Source of the DNA: a virus
Length of the DNA: 27,046 bases
Virus record (IMG/VR): IMGVR_UViG_3300046519_000202
Span: 1-27,046 of that record
Direction: 5' to 3' (one strand)
Shown here: positions 3,506 to 13,637 of the stretch, piece after piece
How positions within the stretch are numbered: the first letter of the stretch is position 1
Layout of the letters: every line of letters begins with the position of its first letter
Notes under the pieces: model-generated
What the model saw: the letters and a program-made list of their open reading frames with translations, nothing else
Databases searched by the model: none
What the model was told of the DNA's origin: nothing
Position numbers and translations under genes: made by a program

Positions 3506-3722
3506 CAGCCACCTCTACCTTCTCAGCGGCTTGGGCCAACGCATCCAGCAGCAGCTGCTGGCGCTGCTGTCCATCCAAGTACTGTTTTACCGCCAGCACG
3601 AAAACGCTGTTCATGCTGGTATGAACCTCAGCCGCGTGCTGGTCGACCTGCTCGCGCAAGCCATCAGGAAGCCGAACGACAAATTTGTCAGCCAGGCGGC
3701 TGTCGTGGGTCTTGTTGCTCAT
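3492..3722 (-). CDS. Arc-like ribbon-helix-helix DNA-binding protein
   Basis: 76 residues. DKFVVRLPDGLREQVDQHAA is the beta strand and first helix of the Arc/Mnt ribbon-helix-helix fold, and TSMNSVFVLAVKQYLD the second helix with the usual S-M-N turn. The family binds operator DNA as dimers. AAGGAG lies 7 bases before the ATG at 3722. In the PL operon it may control early genes in the way P22 Arc acts in its immunity region, but no target can be named. The C-terminal 25 residues are a helical Gln/Ala-rich tail. About 130 bases upstream, to the next gene, hold no gene that I can support. Confidence 0.85.
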   Translation of the reverse strand: MSNKTHDSRLADKFVVRLPDGLREQVDQHAAEVHTSMNSVFVLAVKQYLDGQQRQQLLLDALAQAAEKVEVADASA

Positions 3723-3852
3723 GGTGCTACTCCTTAATGCCCCTTATTCGGGGCGAGCGGGGGCCCGCCGCGCTTTTTGGCTTTCGCAAATTTCAGTTGG
3801 GGTTGGTGGTTACATCACCGGACTGCGCCCGCGCACAGGCGCACGCCGTTGC

Positions 3853-4164
3853 TTACGCCACGAAGACACCACGGTGCTCTTCGCTGTCTTCCTGATCCTG
3901 AGGCGCTTGGGCTGGAGTAGATAGCGCAATCAGGCCTTGAGTAATCGATGCAACAACCAAATCTCGAAGGGTCCGGCAGCCCATCTTGAAGCGGGCGCTT
4001 TCCAATCCTTTTTCAACTGCCTTCGGAGTTACACCCATCTCGCGTGCAATCTCCTTTAGCGTCATGCCGCCTGCAGCCAGCAAGGTGGCCTCCATCTCTC
4101 GCAAGGCTAGACCACGACCAAGAAAGCCAGTCCAGGCGCCTTTACTGATTGTGGTGGTCATCAT
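3853..4164 (-). CDS. LuxR/GerE-type helix-turn-helix regulator, first gene of the PL operon
   Basis: 103 residues. Residues about 19-75 are a GerE-like HTH: LALREMEATLLAAGGMTLKEI is the first half, and MGVTPKAVEKGLESARFKMG contains the recognition helix. There is no receiver or ligand domain, so the protein is an isolated HTH. AAGGAG lies 7 bases before the ATG at 4164. It is the first gene after PL, the place of N in lambda, but it shows no N-like arginine-rich motif. It probably regulates phage or host promoters, as inferred from the domain only. Confidence 0.8.
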   Translation of the reverse strand: MMTTTISKGAWTGFLGRGLALREMEATLLAAGGMTLKEIAREMGVTPKAVEKGLESARFKMGCRTLRDLVVASITQGLIALSTPAQAPQDQEDSEEHRGVFVA

Positions 4165-4211
4165 GGTGAAGCTCCTTGCTGCTTGAGGGCGTCATCTACG
4201 CCGATGAACAT

Positions 4212-4240
4212 AATTTAGAAAACTAAACGGCCACTGTCAA
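4212..4240 (-). promoter_or_regulatory. PL, strong leftward early promoter
   Basis: On the minus strand TTGACA (4240-4235) is a perfect -35. A 17-base spacer and the -10 TAAATT (4217-4212) follow. Transcription would start near 4205 and read the whole 4164-527 operon. The -10 and spacer overlap one CI operator copy, and a second lies just upstream of the -35, so repression by CI is expected. Confidence 0.8.
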
Positions 4241-4262
4241 ATGTTTAGTTTAGAATTCTAAA
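4214..4262. promoter_or_regulatory. Left operator cluster (OL-like), two perfect palindromes
   Basis: TTTAGAAAACTAAA (4214-4227) and TTTAGAATTCTAAA (4249-4262) share the inverted-repeat arms TTTAG/CTAAA with a 4-base centre. An extra half-site GTTTAG (4243-4248) precedes the second. The same motif occurs three times beside cI, which identifies it as the phage repressor operator. The centres are 35 bases apart and bracket the PL -35. Confidence 0.85.
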
Positions 4263-4320
4263 TAATCGACTATCTCATTGGTGCTTCCTGTTCGCACACG
4301 AATGCGATAATCTCGCAATA

Positions 4321-4336
4321 CTGTACGGATATACAG
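4321..4336. promoter_or_regulatory. LexA (SOS) box
   Basis: CTGTACGGATATACAG fits CTG-N10-CAG and the Pseudomonas/E. coli consensus CTGTATATATATACAG at 13 of 16 positions, and it is preceded by TA as in the extended consensus. It lies 15 bases before the start codon of the DUF1654-like gene, where a bound repressor would block transcription. Confidence 0.8.
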
Positions 4337-4351
4337 CAAAAGGAGAGCGAG

Positions 4352-4669
4352 ATGGCAAAGGCACAGAAGAAACCTGCAGAGCGGATTGTTGTGAGCGGGA
4401 TCGAGCGTCTACGGCTCCGGGTGTCCAACATGATCAACCACCCTAATTCCCAGGAACGGAAGAGCGTTCGGATTCACCGGTTGGATACGGATGGAGACCG
4501 CGAGTGGGATGAGGTGATTGGTGCGCTGTCGGAGGTGGACGGTATTGAGATGACCTTCAACGACGAGGATGAGTCAATCAATCTGAGCTGGGAAGCCCCG
4601 TCAGATGATGACCCTAGGGCTGAGATCCATGAGGAGTTTGATGCGGTGGAGGAGGTTGCTCCTTTCTGA
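4352..4669 (+). CDS. DUF1654-like acidic protein under SOS control
   Basis: 105 residues. The core IERLRLRVSNMINHP and SVRIHRLDTDGDREWDEVIG matches the DUF1654 signature IHRLDTD-x-W known from Pseudomonas and its phages (from memory, not searched). The N-terminus is basic, while the last 60 residues are strongly acidic (many Asp/Glu), which is also seen in DNA-mimic proteins. AAGGAGAG precedes the ATG. A LexA box lies just upstream, so the gene should be expressed on DNA damage, independently of CI. It is the only rightward gene between PL and cI and converges on cI. Its function is not known to me; a role in SOS-dependent induction is inference. Confidence 0.8.
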   Translation: MAKAQKKPAERIVVSGIERLRLRVSNMINHPNSQERKSVRIHRLDTDGDREWDEVIGALSEVDGIEMTFNDEDESINLSWEAPSDDDPRAEIHEEFDAVEEVAPF

Positions 4670-4742: not shown

Positions 4743-5567
4743 TCAGGCTTTCCGTCCGTTCCAGATGTACAGAACCTTCGCATGCATCGTTACGTCTTCA
4801 ATCCGGGCGGTCTGGTTCTCGTAGTGCTGATTGTCCGAAATGAGTCTGTAGTGATCCTCGTCCAGCCGCATTACGCGTTTGATGTACAACTCGTGGTGCC
4901 ACGTCATCACGTAGATCCCTTCCCCTACGAAATCTTTGACCCCGCGATCAACTATCACCAGATCTTTGTCGTTGATCGTGCCTTCCATCGACTGCCCCCA
5001 GCCATTGATCATTGCTAGAGCTGAAGCTGACGTGTAGGTGACACCCTTTTCGCGTAGTAGCTCCTCGCGAACCACTAAGTTCCGGACTACCTCGGTGTAG
5101 TCCGGCGGTACTTGCCCGTGGCCCATGGCCGCGCGCACGTCGTATTGGGGGATGACAATTTCTTCGTTGCGGGGTCGAAGAAAACTATGCTCGGCAGGAA
5201 AAAATTCGGCTTGTGACGACTCGTCAGCCGCAGCCAATAGGCGATTACGCGTCACCTCGGCTATGCCTTTGCCGCTCTTGGCAAGCATATCCTTTACAAG
5301 ATCTGCAGCCGAAGAGCTTGTGGCTGAGGGCAATCTTTCCCCCTTGGCGCTGGTGAGATCGTCTACCTCGCCAACACCATCAGAAAGCCATCCTGGCGAG
5401 CATTTCAATGCGCTGGCCAAGGCAAGCAAATTTCTCCCCTTTGCACCGTTTGTTCCGTTCACCCAAAAGCTGACTGTTGCTTTGGACACGCCAGTCAGCT
5501 TGCTGATCTCGGTTGCACTGAGGTTGAGGTCCCTCATGCGGGCTATCACGCGGTCTTTGAATTCCAT
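4743..5567 (-). CDS. cI: CI-type phage repressor (HTH plus S24 peptidase)
   Basis: 274 residues from the ATG at 5567. Residues about 5-55 are an XRE-type HTH (ISKLTGVSKATVSFWVNG). Residues about 140-265 are an S24 LexA/CI C-terminal domain, with nucleophile S193 (GWGQSMEG) and general base K230 (LYIKRV). The self-cleavage loop reads VRAAMGHG, so the scissile bond would be Met148-Gly149 or next to it rather than the usual Ala-Gly. The protein should hold lysogeny by binding the TTTAG-N4-CTAAA operators, and RecA-stimulated self-cleavage would trigger induction. There is no Shine-Dalgarno sequence, and the -10 of its promoter ends 7 bases before the ATG, so the mRNA is probably leaderless like lambda cI. 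Confidence 0.93.
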   Translation of the reverse strand: MEFKDRVIARMRDLNLSATEISKLTGVSKATVSFWVNGTNGAKGRNLLALASALKCSPGWLSDGVGEVDDLTSAKGERLPSATSSSAADLVKDMLAKSGKGIAEVTRNRLLAAADESSQAEFFPAEHSFLRPRNEEIVIPQYDVRAAMGHGQVPPDYTEVVRNLVVREELLREKGVTYTSASALAMINGWGQSMEGTINDKDLVIVDRGVKDFVGEGIYVMTWHHELYIKRVMRLDEDHYRLISDNQHYENQTARIEDVTMHAKVLYIWNGRKA

Positions 5568-5568
5568 A

Positions 5569-5629
5569 TTTAGGATTCTAAACAAATGACTGTTTAGATA
5601 ACTTGCCTTGTCAGGTTTAGAACTCTAAA
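5569..5629. promoter_or_regulatory. Right operator cluster (OR3-OR2-OR1-like)
   Basis: Three 14-bp sites: TTTAGGATTCTAAA (5569-5582), the degenerate TTTAGATAACTTGC (5593-5606) and TTTAGAACTCTAAA (5616-5629). The centres are 24 and 23 bases apart, close to two DNA turns. The first covers the cI promoter -10, the middle overlaps the -35 regions of both promoters, and the last covers the cro promoter -10, as OR3, OR2 and OR1 do in lambda. Confidence 0.85.
5575..5603 (-). promoter_or_regulatory. PRM-like promoter of cI
   Basis: Reading leftward, TAGAAT (5580-5575) is a 5/6 -10 hexamer. The -35 at 17-base spacing (AGTTAT, 5603-5598) is very poor and lies in the OR2-like site, as expected for a promoter that needs CI as activator. 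The start of transcription would fall at or next to the A of the cI ATG. Confidence 0.6.
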
Positions 5630-5655: not shown

Positions 5656-5865
5656 ATGACCTACGAAGAAGCGTTGAATCACTTCGGCACAGGCCGAGCC
5701 ATCGGAGACGCCCTAGGTGTAACGGGCAGTCGTGTTTCTCAGTGTCGCGCAGCTGGAGGTTTCTCATACCCGATGCAATGCGTTTTGGAAAAAGAATCCG
5801 CTGGCGCGCTGATCGCTTCGCGTGACGACGATCCTTTTCACGCCACCAAGTCGTCGGCAGCGTGA
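5656..5865 (+). CDS. cro: Cro-like repressor
   Basis: 69 residues. HFGTGRAIGDALGVTGSRVS is a helix-turn-helix strongly like P22 Cro (DHFGT-RAV-ALGIS pattern, from memory). CGGAG lies 7 bases before the ATG. It is divergent from cI across the operator cluster, the defining position of cro. It should repress cI and damp PR/PL during lytic growth by binding the same palindromes. The tail after residue 45 is short and has no recognised domain. Confidence 0.85.
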   Translation: MTYEEALNHFGTGRAIGDALGVTGSRVSQCRAAGGFSYPMQCVLEKESAGALIASRDDDPFHATKSSAA

Positions 5866-7406: not shown

Positions 7407-7654
7407 GCAGCCATCAGCCTTTGAGTTTCGATGACTTTGAATGCCTGGCCGAGCGGATGTTTGAGCAGGCATGCGAGCGGTCTACGTATACCGGCGCGCC
7501 AGTCGGCGCGGTTTTGGCTGGTGTGATTTTCCACCTAGCGATGGAAGCCCAGCTCAACGCCGTGCCCGAAGCAATGCTGCACCTGGTGCTCGCGCAGGCA
7601 GGTGAGGATTTCCGCGCGGCAGAAGCTAATGCACTTGCAGCGGAGGCGACCTAA
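7403..7654 (+). CDS. Hypothetical early phage protein
   Basis: 83 residues, helical and Ala/Glu-rich, with a hydrophobic stretch in the middle (GAPVGAVLAGVIFHLAMEA) that is short and interrupted by charged flanks, so it is more likely a buried helix than a membrane span. No family is recognised. It overlaps the next gene by one base (TAATG) and the previous one by 4. Confidence 0.62.
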   Translation: MSSHQPLSFDDFECLAERMFEQACERSTYTGAPVGAVLAGVIFHLAMEAQLNAVPEAMLHLVLAQAGEDFRAAEANALAAEAT

Positions 7655-8451
7655 TGAGCATTGTCATCATCAAAGACGGCGATGCCGTCACGACCACCGT
7701 CGTTGTTGCGGCTGGCACAGAGAACGAGCACGCCAGTGTCATCGCGCTTGTGCGAAAGTACCAAGCAGATTTCGAGGAGTTTGGAAGGGTGCGATTTGAA
7801 ATCGAACCCTTTGAAACCTCTGGTGGAATCCAGTCGCGCGAGATTGCCTTGCTGGATGAACCTCAGGCCTCTCTGCTGCTGACCTACATGCGCAACACCG
7901 AGATCGTTCGCGCGTTCAAGAAGAAGCTTGTCCGCGAATTCTGGGAAATGGTTCAACACCGTAACCGGACTCGACCGCTACTTCCCGAAGACCTACCGGG
8001 CGCGCTTCGCCTTGCTGCCGACCTTGCCGAGCAAAAGGCCGTGCTGGCACTGGAAAACCAGCAGCAGGCCGCGAAGATTGAGGCGCTTGAGCACCTTTTC
8101 ATGCCCGGCGAAACACCCACACAGTTCGCGAAGCGCCTGAACGGCGTTAATTCCCAACAAATCAACGCCTACCTCGTGGAATTGAAGTGGGTTTTCAACG
8201 CCGAGAGAAAGCCCAACAGCTCGCCCAAATACCGCGTTTACGCCATCGCGCGCGACAAGCATTGGCTTACTGAAAAGCCGGTCACCGTCGGCGGTGAGGG
8301 CACCACTTCCTTCATCCGTTATGCGCCGGTGATGCTGGAGGAGGGGACTAAGAAACTCTTCGACCTCTACATGGCGGAAAAGCTGCCCATGAAACAGACC
8401 TGGGACGGCCAGTTCTTTTACGAAAAATTCAATCCGGAGAAGCCCCTGTGA
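7654..8451 (+). CDS. Rha-family phage regulator with KilAC domain
   Basis: 265 residues. Residues about 20-100 match the phage regulatory protein Rha N-terminal domain (SREIALLDEPQASLLLTYMR, then FKKKLVREFWEM). Residues about 115-145 form a Gln/Ala-rich coiled linker. Residues about 150-235 match the KilAC antirepressor C-terminal domain (GVNSQQINAYLVELKWVFN, then YRVYAIARDKHWLTEK). Both domains are common in phage antirepressors and regulators, and Rha interferes with phage growth in some hosts. It may be an antirepressor acting on CI or a host regulator; the target is not visible. It is coupled to both neighbours. Confidence 0.85.
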   Translation: MSIVIIKDGDAVTTTVVVAAGTENEHASVIALVRKYQADFEEFGRVRFEIEPFETSGGIQSREIALLDEPQASLLLTYMRNTEIVRAFKKKLVREFWEMVQHRNRTRPLLPEDLPGALRLAADLAEQKAVLALENQQQAAKIEALEHLFMPGETPTQFAKRLNGVNSQQINAYLVELKWVFNAERKPNSSPKYRVYAIARDKHWLTEKPVTVGGEGTTSFIRYAPVMLEEGTKKLFDLYMAEKLPMKQTWDGQFFYEKFNPEKPL

Positions 8452-10919: not shown

Positions 10920-12301
10920 GGGAGCTATTCAGCATCGAGGCCGAGCACGGCCTGCTGGGCGCGCTGATGCTCGACGCGTCCCTGTTCGACGAGATCACCG
11001 GCAAAGTGAGCACGCGCGACTTCAGCGACCTGGAGAACGCCGCGCTGTACCAAGCCATCATTGATACCCACGCCGCGGGCATGCCGTTTGACCCGGTGAC
11101 CGTGGGCGTTGAGCACCCAATGCTGCCCAGTGGGGAAAAAACCATCGCCTACGCCAGCGAGATTGCCGCCAACACGCCCAGCGCTGCCAACTGGAAGGCC
11201 TATCAGCGGGTGGTGCTGGAGCGCGCCGCCTTGCGCAAGGTCGTCGAGGTGGCGGACGTGATTCGCGACAGTGCCAGCGAGAATAGGCCGGTGGCGGAGA
11301 TCATCGCGCTGGCTCAACAGGCCACAGCTGATCTGCGCGACCTGGACGACGGCGCGCCGAAGTACCGCCGCCTCGACCAGGTGATGGGGGATGCCAGCCA
11401 GATCGTCGACGACAAGTTCAGCGGCCGGGCGCCGAGTTGGCCGGCCACTGGCCTGGCCAAGCTCGATGAACTGATGCAGGGCATACGGCCGAAGAAGGTC
11501 ACCGTGATTGCCGGCCTGCCCGGTAGCGGCAAGACCACGCTCGGCCTGCAGATTGCCCAGTACAACGCGGTGAAGAAGCGCAAGCCGTGGCTGATCTTCT
11601 CCATCGAGATGCCGGGGGAGGAACTGGGCGTGCGGGCGATCGCTGCGCTGGGCGGGGTCGATCTGCGTCGGCTGGACAACCCGGAGCGCATGAACACCGA
11701 CGACTGGTCGAACATGGTCAACGCGGTGGCGATGGCGGTGGATGCCCCGTTGTTTATCTGCGACGACCCAGTGCAGACCCCCGCCACCATCCGGGCCACT
11801 GCGCGGCAATGCGAGCGCGAGCACGGCCTGGCCGGCGTGATGGTCGATTACCTGGGGTTGATCCAGTCGGAGAAGAAAGGGCGTACCCGCAGCGAGGAAG
11901 TGGGCGCGATCAGCAAGGCCCTGCTGCGCCTGGCCAAGGAAATGGATATCCCGGTCATCGAGCTGGCGCAGTTGAACCGCGATTCCACCAAGCGGGTGGG
12001 CAAGCGGCCCCAGTCCAGCGACCTGCGCGATTCTGGCGAAATCGAAGCGGATGCCAGCTGCATCCTCATGGTGCACCGCGACATGGATACCGAGGAAGGC
12101 CAGAACGGTGTCACCGAGCTGCTGATGACCAAGTGCAGGCACGCCAAGGTCGGCAGTTGCGTCGTGCAACAGCAGGGCGAGTACGGACGATTCGTCGACT
12201 TCGAGGGCAACCCGTACGCGTCTGACGAAGAGGTCGAGATGGGCCGCAGCTTTGCCGGCCGTTTCAGCCACAAGGGGGTAGGCAATGACACACGCTTCTA
12301 A
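10916..12301 (+). CDS. DnaB-like replicative helicase
   Basis: 461 residues from the ATGA overlap at 10916; the frame continues upstream but there without coding fit. Residues about 1-100 are the DnaB N-terminal helical domain (EAEHGLLGALMLD), and about 165-440 the RecA-like helicase core with Walker A at 200-208 (GLPGSGKTT), Walker B near 309-316 (MVDYLGLI), the AQLNR motif (351-355) and SSDLRDSGEIEADA (367-380). It is the 5'-3' fork helicase of the phage. With its own loader and initiator, the phage carries a complete initiation set. Confidence 0.93.
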   Translation: MRELFSIEAEHGLLGALMLDASLFDEITGKVSTRDFSDLENAALYQAIIDTHAAGMPFDPVTVGVEHPMLPSGEKTIAYASEIAANTPSAANWKAYQRVVLERAALRKVVEVADVIRDSASENRPVAEIIALAQQATADLRDLDDGAPKYRRLDQVMGDASQIVDDKFSGRAPSWPATGLAKLDELMQGIRPKKVTVIAGLPGSGKTTLGLQIAQYNAVKKRKPWLIFSIEMPGEELGVRAIAALGGVDLRRLDNPERMNTDDWSNMVNAVAMAVDAPLFICDDPVQTPATIRATARQCEREHGLAGVMVDYLGLIQSEKKGRTRSEEVGAISKALLRLAKEMDIPVIELAQLNRDSTKRVGKRPQSSDLRDSGEIEADASCILMVHRDMDTEEGQNGVTELLMTKCRHAKVGSCVVQQQGEYGRFVDFEGNPYASDEEVEMGRSFAGRFSHKGVGNDTRF

Positions 12302-13637
12302 GACGGCCACGGTGATGATCAGTGACGCCGAGATCCGCCGCAATGCCGCCGGCGACCTGCGCCAGTTGCGCGACACCCGCCACCGCGCACTGCGCTTTCG
12401 CTACTCCACCACCGACCGCGCCAGAGGCTCGTGGCACGTCGTCGTGGCGGGGCAGTGGGGCAAGGCCGGGAATTTCCCCGACATCAGCACCAAGACGATG
12501 CTGGCGGCCTTGCCGGATATCCTCGTGCGGCGAGGTGCCGACGCTGAGGCGAAGTCCACCACCACCAACTGGGTGACGGTGGGCGACCTGCTGGCCTGGT
12601 ATCAGGATCGGATGGGCCGGGACCGGGGCCTGTCCACCAAGCGCAAGGCCAGCGCCAAGTCGGCGCTGACTTGTCACCTGCTGCCGTGCCTGGGCGACCT
12701 GCCGCTGGCCGGGGTGAACAAGACCGAACTGGACAAGCGCCTCATGTGGCCCATGCAGGAGCGTTTTGCGCTGTCGTTCGTGCGCTCGGTCTATGGCGTG
12801 CTGGCGGTGGCATTCCGGCAGGCGGCGCGGCTGGACATGCTGGCGCGCAACCCGATGGCCGAGCTGAAGTACACCGATTTCGTGCGTACCCGGATCAAGC
12901 CCAAGCCGGCCCGGCTGCGCGCGGATGACCTGCCGCCGCTGTTGCAGGTGCTGGCCGAGCAGTTCGACGCCAGCCCGGTGGAATCCATGCTGCCGCTGAT
13001 GATGCTCTGTCACGGCTGCCGCCTGGGCGAAACCCGGCTGGCGCGCTGGAAAAACGTCAATCTGGTGAGCCGGCAATGGTTCATCCCCGCGGCCGACACC
13101 AAGACCAAGGCCGAGCACACCTTGCCGCTGACCGCCCAGGCCTGCGCCCTGCTGGCGCGCTACCGGGCCAAGCAAGCGGCGAACGGCTACACCGGGCCTT
13201 TCCTGTTCCCCGGCAGCACCGGGGCTGCATTGAGTGCCAGCAAGGCCTGCACGGTGTTCACCAGCGTGGCCAAAGGCGAGTGGTCCAGCCATGACCTGCG
13301 CAAGGTGGCCCGCACCGCCTGGACGGACCTGGGCGTCGACTACATGGTGGGGGAGCTGCTGCTCAACCATGCCATGAAGGACTTGGACGCCACCTACATC
13401 CACACCACGGCCGAGGGCCTGAAACGCCGGGCGCTGGAGGACTGGCACGCGCACCTGGATACGGTCGGTTTCGAGGTGCTGCATACCGGGACATTGCCGG
13501 GACAGAACGCAACTGCTAATCCCGCGCAAGCCACGAACGGCGAGGCTTACAGCGCGATCAAGCATCCATCCCAAGGGAGGATGCAAAACCAAATTTCAAA
13601 GGGCCAAGCGCCCAGCCAGGAGACCGGCCATGAGTAG
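12285..13637 (+). CDS. Second tyrosine recombinase, in the replication operon
   Basis: 450 residues; the ATG at 12285 overlaps the helicase end by 17 bases. Residues about 95-200 are the core-binding domain, and about 210-385 the catalytic domain with the full set R246 (CHGCRLGE), a lysine in the beta hairpin (KTKAEHTLPL), H336 and R339 (SHDLRKVA), H362 (LLNHAM) and Y371 (DATYIH). The tail after about 400 is Gln/Asn/Pro-rich and looks disordered. It is distinct from the attL integrase and complete in catalytic residues. Its job is unknown; genome dimer resolution, a second attachment system or accessory recombination are possible. Confidence 0.88.
   Translation: MTHASKTATVMISDAEIRRNAAGDLRQLRDTRHRALRFRYSTTDRARGSWHVVVAGQWGKAGNFPDISTKTMLAALPDILVRRGADAEAKSTTTNWVTVGDLLAWYQDRMGRDRGLSTKRKASAKSALTCHLLPCLGDLPLAGVNKTELDKRLMWPMQERFALSFVRSVYGVLAVAFRQAARLDMLARNPMAELKYTDFVRTRIKPKPARLRADDLPPLLQVLAEQFDASPVESMLPLMMLCHGCRLGETRLARWKNVNLVSRQWFIPAADTKTKAEHTLPLTAQACALLARYRAKQAANGYTGPFLFPGSTGAALSASKACTVFTSVAKGEWSSHDLRKVARTAWTDLGVDYMVGELLLNHAMKDLDATYIHTTAEGLKRRALEDWHAHLDTVGFEVLHTGTLPGQNATANPAQATNGEAYSAIKHPSQGRMQNQISKGQAPSQETGHE

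Follow-up and report, generated by a model that had tools for sequence, protein, structure and literature searches.

A LexA-boxed DUF1654 gene in a Pseudomonas prophage immunity region encodes a candidate SOS-induced protein with a putative SSB-type C-terminal tip

LexA-controlled prophage genes are already known as a kind, and those located in the immunity region have precedents in the antirepressors 186 Tum, N15 AntC and Gifsy AntO. A second described system of relevance here is the C-terminal tip of bacterial SSB, whose interacting proteins include RecJ and RecQ. RecO, ExoI, PriA and the chi subunit are also named as SSB-interacting proteins in published papers. The RecO pocket is reported to hold the terminal Pro and Phe of SSB, with a K of ∼1.2e7 per M for a tail peptide of 15 residues (PMC7913777), and a phage SSB tail ending in NDYPPF is described as acting mainly through its last six residues (PMC5928155), so the full DDDIPF sequence is not needed. 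In Pseudomonas, the SSB end DSFDDDIPF has been published (PMC10711431). As for DUF1654, the one paper found in the literature searched assigns it no known function and suggests that it might bind protein or nucleic acid.

In this work we have analysed a virus record of 27,046 nucleotides (IMG/VR record IMGVR_UViG_3300046519_000202; hereafter the window), which shows a temperate-phage gene order according to its open reading frames and their Pfam and PHROGs profile matches. An integrase gene with a Phage_integrase domain (Pfam) is found at 527-1864 on the minus strand, and a second gene with the same domain lies at 12285-13637 on the plus strand, far inside the rightward region, so that there are two in one phage record. 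The leftward operon starts with a gene for a LuxR/sigma-like HTH protein (3853-4164, minus strand; phrog_3282 and Pfam). A motif scan detected the CI-operator-like palindrome TTTAG-N4-CTAAA at just four sites in the 27 kb (starting at 4214, 4249, 5569 and 5616), one pair at PL (4214-4262) and the other in the cI/Cro-like intergenic region (5569-5629), thus flanking the leftward promoter and the cI/cro intergenic region. The DUF1654 gene, of 105 codons, is located between these pairs on the plus strand (4352-4669, the end counting the stop codon) and is convergent with the gene for a CI-type repressor with HTH and Peptidase_S24 domains (4743-5567, minus strand; PF01381, E 2.3e-10, and PF00717, E 4.9e-20). 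The Cro-like regulator follows at 5656-5865 on the plus strand (phrog_409, E 3.3e-12; the P22_Cro match is weak and under the cut-off), and a Rha/Ant-type regulator is encoded apart from the LexA-boxed gene, as a rightward early gene at 7654-8451 (PF09669; phrog_63, 'anti-repressor Ant').

The stop codons of the DUF1654 and cI genes are 73 nt apart, with a GC-rich stem between them that is followed by TTTT, as read by eye, only on the strand that reads cI. None of the four operator-like palindromes overlaps the region directly before the DUF1654 gene. Hence the first-pass annotation, which had placed this gene between PL and cI and outside the CI-controlled transcripts, agrees with the position of the operator-like sites and with the convergent orientation of cI, and the gene is probably independent of those transcripts. 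Scanning for consensus promoters gave no sigma-70 pair before the gene on the plus strand; reading by eye, we noticed a −10-like GATAAT at 4306-4311 (plus strand) as a presumed promoter, whose transcription start would be overlain by a LexA (SOS) box at 4321-4336.

This box, CTGTACGGATATACAG on the plus strand, has no mismatches to CTGT-N8-ACAG, is the sole perfect site in the window, and leaves 15 nt between its end and the start codon at 4352. Taken alone it is weak evidence and could be due to chance: the window contains six SOS sites with at most one mismatch when 8.2 are expected by shuffling, and the looser CTG-N10-CAG occurs 13 times. However, it is more than chance because it is conserved at the same place in relatives. 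A CTG-N10-CAG box closely precedes the homologous gene in 158 of the 160 loci compared, a count that required at least four A or T inside the box, and the remaining two differ by one base. By column counts, 155 of those 158 boxes have the form CTG[T/G]-N8-ACAG and 103 are exact CTGT...ACAG, while the former pattern appears only 19 times in the other 1.1 Mb of these loci (0.0026 per 150 nt). The 160 loci comprise 80 IMG/VR contigs, the best 80 of 360 matches to search patterns that included the tail peptide, and 80 Pseudomonas contigs, the best 80 of 95 matches to core patterns only, both samples being biased toward relatives that are close to the window or full-length.

Furthermore, a second set that partly overlaps these loci comprised 56 DUF1654 reading frames, 44 of them from Pseudomonas genomes and the other 12 from a total of 11 phage records, and every one had a CTG-N10-CAG in the scanned stretch, at whatever distance from its true start. 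As positive controls, a CTG-N10-CAG box was present at recA in five of five Pseudomonas genomes (two of these boxes having the CTGG form) and at lexA in four of the five best LexA-family matches, the fifth not being located by the filter; within the LexA-family control, six of ten loci were not located (L241 and five weaker ones). The SOS box that had been noted 15 bases before the gene is therefore real, a perfect CTGT-N8-ACAG site of the same general type as the boxes of recA and lexA, and these comparisons indicate that the DUF1654 gene is very likely under LexA control. Side by side with the S24 repressor, whose self-cleavage is predicted from the presence of the domain, this would plausibly constitute a second SOS input. 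Two other observations concern SOS boxes and this family. Phage YMC11/07/P54 contains a divergent pair of DUF1654 genes (3668-3907, minus strand, and 4001-4315, plus strand), each with a CTG-N10-CAG box. PA0922, described as a LexA-regulon gene divergent from dinB (PMC8944484), was considered as a candidate chromosomal DUF1654 gene and not retained.

The encoded protein is a clear member of DUF1654, with a score of 68.8 bits to PF07867 against a gathering cut-off of 27 (E 3.3e-19, residues 16-84), and its phrog_2707 match (E 6.3e-30) covers residues 1-87. PF07867 was its sole Pfam match at E 0.1, no SSB or other domain being found. Two AlphaFold2 models with the same topology show a folded core at residues 16-80 (4397-4591, plus strand) arranged as alpha-alpha-beta-alpha-beta-beta, with pLDDT of 84-90 in the ten-residue blocks of residues 21-80 and whole-chain means of 73.5 and 73.7. 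When the core was compared with the PDB, one model matched 1ug8 (R3H; Z 6.5, rmsd 6.9, 76 aligned residues), and with the other the top match was the Smr structure 2zqe (Z 6.5, rmsd 3.0, 68 aligned), 1ug8 having a Z of 5.3. As the R3H, Smr and ribosomal S8 matches are tied at Z 5-6.5, a level common for this comparison, we abandoned as unproven the idea of a degenerate R3H domain. No Foldseek match to the core was obtained at E 0.001, and a profile search of solved-structure sequences with the core gave nothing below E 0.2. In BFVD, uncharacterised proteins of other phages (for instance, of Acinetobacter phage 133) match the core with E of at least 0.006, probabilities of up to 1.00 and, for the best of them, TM of ∼0.5-0.66.

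Beyond the core, residues 81-99 (4592-4648, plus strand) form an acidic linker with variable columns and predicted disorder, pLDDT being below 50 at residues 84-97 in one AlphaFold2 model and 84-99 in the other. The acidic C-terminal half, which had been recognised from the window sequence, holds across the tailed relatives: the mean net charge of the last 25 residues is −7.8 in 148 distinct proteins. The chain ends in E-E-V-A-P-F (4649-4666, plus strand), a conserved tip that we call SSB-type and whose typical form is E-E-x-A-P-F. The C-terminal residue is F in 147 of the 148 proteins and the last two are PF in 143, with A at −3 in 135, E at −5 in 135 and E at −6 in 139. Position −4, where P, A, V, E and L prevail, is variable, as are the majority of positions from −7 back to −25, with F present at −10 in 80 proteins and 100 having V, L, I or M at −7. 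As the DNA that encodes this end comprises 34 different last-nine-nucleotide strings and all three stop codons, selection acts on the protein. By comparison, only five of 5550 other reading frames of at least 80 aa in the same loci end in PF; one of them is a DUF1654 gene that had escaped the filter, and the ends of the remaining four are not acidic. In one locus, L143 (P. gessardii), the DUF1654 protein extends three residues beyond an APF tip, as if the stop codon had moved.

The tip resembles that of the host SSB. All ten genomes in which the host SSB was checked gave the C-terminus DSFDDDIPF; the check covered 14 SSB-family loci, with no SSB obtained at L221-L223 and L220 extending beyond the tip. 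Against this SSB tail, the last 12 residues of the DUF1654 proteins have a mean score of 16.7, compared with 6.8 (sd 7.6) when positions −3 to −12 are shuffled. Singly, 43 of 146 tails, a set that excludes the window and the L143 protein (which ends in A), outscore their own PF-kept shuffles at 5%, and most of the likeness is therefore PF plus general acidity. The best match to the SSB tail belongs to locus L019, with the end DEFDSIEEAIPF against ADFDSFDDDIPF, and the tail peptide of the window protein is EEFDAVEEVAPF. From these comparisons it is plausible that EEVAPF is a relaxed SSB-type tip.

A search with PF07867 matched 261 of 298 Pseudomonas genomes and none of 14 control genomes, and the family comprises a tailed branch, to which the window belongs, and a tail-less one. 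In the tailed branch the DUF1654 gene has a cI-type repressor gene downstream of it, oppositely oriented, in 73 of the 80 viral loci and in as many of the 80 genomic ones; the two genes are no more than 700 bp apart in 45 viral and 22 genomic cases, and phages F116, LESphi3, phi297 and PotUPM1 show the same gene order, with intervening genes in some. In 28 of the 80 viral loci and 51 of the 80 genomic ones (L138, for example) the gap between DUF1654 and cI reaches 0.7-3.7 kb and holds varied cargo, and the window has no cargo there. Five of ten scanned cargo proteins match PADLOC models: PDC-M53A at L064, PDC-S05/RhuM at L130, an RmrA-like protein at L029, a restriction-type helicase at L027 and, weakly, PDC-M24B at L108.

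The best-scoring DUF1654 copies in the genomes are short, consisting of the core only and most of them ending in ...PKED. This tail-less branch is mostly chromosomal and is also LexA-boxed. In 29 of 36 tail-less loci the DUF1654 gene is closely followed, on its own strand, by a gene that a two-motif pattern identified as endonuclease I, and the assignment was supported by PF04231 in the three cases tested. These 36 loci are made up of seven from a 15-gene set, some of whose members are the same genes as loci L086-L165, and 29 of the 30 best-scoring genome copies, the 30th being already among the seven; they are L166-L170, L175, L178 and L181-L209. Tail-less L178 adjoins an S24 repressor instead of endonuclease I. 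It is possible that tail-less DUF1654 and endonuclease I form an SOS-controlled nuclease operon in Pseudomonas, and in the literature searched we found no report on EndA with LexA in this genus. A tree was built from 45 of the 147 PF rows together with the full set of 47 tip-less or F-only ones. In it, the tail-less rows are split from the branch of the window by a long internal branch (length 3.14, support 93/88); the tree has few columns and some very long branches, so its details are unsure.

The tip is not present in every phage that has the gene. Eleven of 51 matched phage records were examined: three end in PF (VW-6S, SC_8_H2H8_2017 and R656), two have an acidic end in -TF or -AF, and six have no such tip. 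Those six are all P. aeruginosa phages (F116, phi297, P54, P52, LESphi3 and D14H) out of the seven of that species examined, R656 being the one with the tip. On the tree they are nested inside the tailed branch, and tip loss is therefore likelier than original absence; the PF label changes nine times, at least five of them forced by well-supported branches. Judging from these sequences, some phages retain the gene without needing the tip.

Taking these data together, we propose that the DUF1654 gene encodes an SOS-induced prophage protein that would dock onto the host partners of SSB through its SSB-type tip, a reading to which we assign a probability of about one half. In the lysogen, LexA bound to the box would hold the gene off independently of CI, and DNA damage, by removing LexA, would allow the protein to be made at once from a prophage that is still integrated. 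The globular core would then carry a flexible acidic tail whose E-E-x-A-P-F tip imitates the SSB tip DSFDDDIPF and, as we infer, docks in the pocket that receives the SSB tip in one or more host partners (RecO, ExoI, RecJ, RecQ, PriA, chi or similar). The protein could compete with SSB for these partners or could hold them at the target of the core, the direction being a guess, and in either case host repair, recombination or single-strand nuclease activity would be redirected during prophage excision and replication. If the tip docks in this way, the phage would act on the SSB hub, that is, on recombination, replication restart and repair, at the moment of the host damage signal. Furthermore, DUF1654, a family of unknown function in most Pseudomonas genomes, gains a regulator and a biochemical handle, for which the tailed and tail-less branches and the tip-less P. 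aeruginosa phages are natural controls.

Other explanations have to be weighed against this docking model. The first-pass annotation had viewed the gene as a possible Tum-like induction switch, that is, a LexA-controlled protein that binds CI and frees the operators, as a second route besides RecA-stimulated self-cleavage of CI. The LexA box and the immunity-region position on which that proposal was built are confirmed, and the constant place by a convergent cI in most viral and genomic loci, a gene outside the CI-operator-flanked promoters and the S24 repressor next to tail-less L178 all fit it, but nothing was found beyond position. No antirepressor family was matched in Pfam, PHROGs or NCBIfam (such proteins are diverse), the window already holds the separate Rha/Ant-type regulator, the same LexA-boxed core adjoins endonuclease I in the mostly chromosomal branch, and the conserved PF tip would be left unexplained. 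In addition, CI is usually the less conserved of the two proteins from locus to locus: among 560 pairs with DUF1654 at 70-80% identity, CI had a median identity of 53% and a 10th percentile of 22%, and was below 30% in 12% of pairs. This divergence test, drawn from 3000 sampled pairs in which the two identities correlate at 0.43, and with a CI model grown from window-like repressors, is soft and would argue only mildly against an antirepressor, a function that we consider quite improbable. The proposal that the acidic half is a DNA mimic did not hold up as well as the acidity itself. An acidic protein that blocks RecBCD, endonuclease I or a similar nuclease, or else a DNA-binding protein, protecting phage DNA after induction, would account for the strongly acidic tail, and the endonuclease I genes downstream of tail-less DUF1654 could represent pairs of a nuclease and its cytoplasmic guard; nevertheless, the acidic stretch varies while the E-E-x-A-P-F tip is kept, which is a better fit to an SSB-type docking tip, the endonuclease I-linked branch is precisely the one without the acidic tail, and the DUF1654 protein had no PADLOC match. 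For these reasons we regard the inhibitor as distinctly unlikely, and for the core itself a nuclease-related function is the best-supported alternative given its endonuclease I neighbours.

The tip could also act elsewhere: in cis on a nucleic-acid site of the core, on a phage-encoded partner or as a C-terminal protease signal. Acidic C-terminal tails regulate their own core in other proteins, as reported for Hfq, and the 14 N-terminal residues of the DUF1654 proteins, which have a mean charge of +2.1 (range −2 to +5) and are thus basic on average, could pair with the tail; however, a -PF end with acidic residues at −5 and −6 is what marks a known SSB tip, and simple charge pairing would not need it, and we think this option unlikely. 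Finally, the gene might be a plain SOS-regulated host-type gene, a passenger without a phage-specific role, as could be expected from the wide presence of DUF1654 in Pseudomonas genomes and from the boxes of the tail-less branch, but the long branch that separates the tailed proteins and the immunity-region place that they keep make this highly improbable.

With respect to novelty, we hold tentatively, and with less than even confidence, the more specific view that a LexA-triggered, CI-independent effector counterfeits the SSB tip on a non-SSB scaffold and, at the onset of SOS, captures or redirects SSB-interacting repair and replication proteins. If true, the target of the phage would be a hub, the SSB interactome, and not one enzyme. 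In the literature searched, outside of which most subscription papers fall, no description was found of a non-SSB phage protein with an SSB-type tip, and as far as searched a protein of this kind with an SSB-type docking tip has not been previously described.

The comparison with the described systems can be summarised as follows. The DUF1654 gene has in common with 186 Tum, N15 AntC and Gifsy AntO its LexA control in the immunity region, but its product, unlike theirs, has no antirepressor-family match. Relative to the descriptions of its own family, the Pfam match ends ahead of the tail, and neither SOS control nor the tip appears in them. With the bacterial SSB tip (DDDIPF/DSFDDDIPF) it shares a disordered acidic tail, a variable linker, the -PF end and acidic residues at −5 and −6, as well as, often, a hydrophobic −7, an acidic −9 and Phe at −10; it differs from SSB in having no SSB domain match, in that −3 is usually Ala and in that −4 is mostly not acidic, the third acidic residue being missing. 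Another parallel is found in phage SSBs with host-like tails, such as that of HK620 with its NDYPPF end, which shows that a phage protein can function with a relaxed tip in PPF (PMC5928155). However, the HK620 protein is a true SSB, whereas the DUF1654 protein would present its tip on a core with no SSB domain match.
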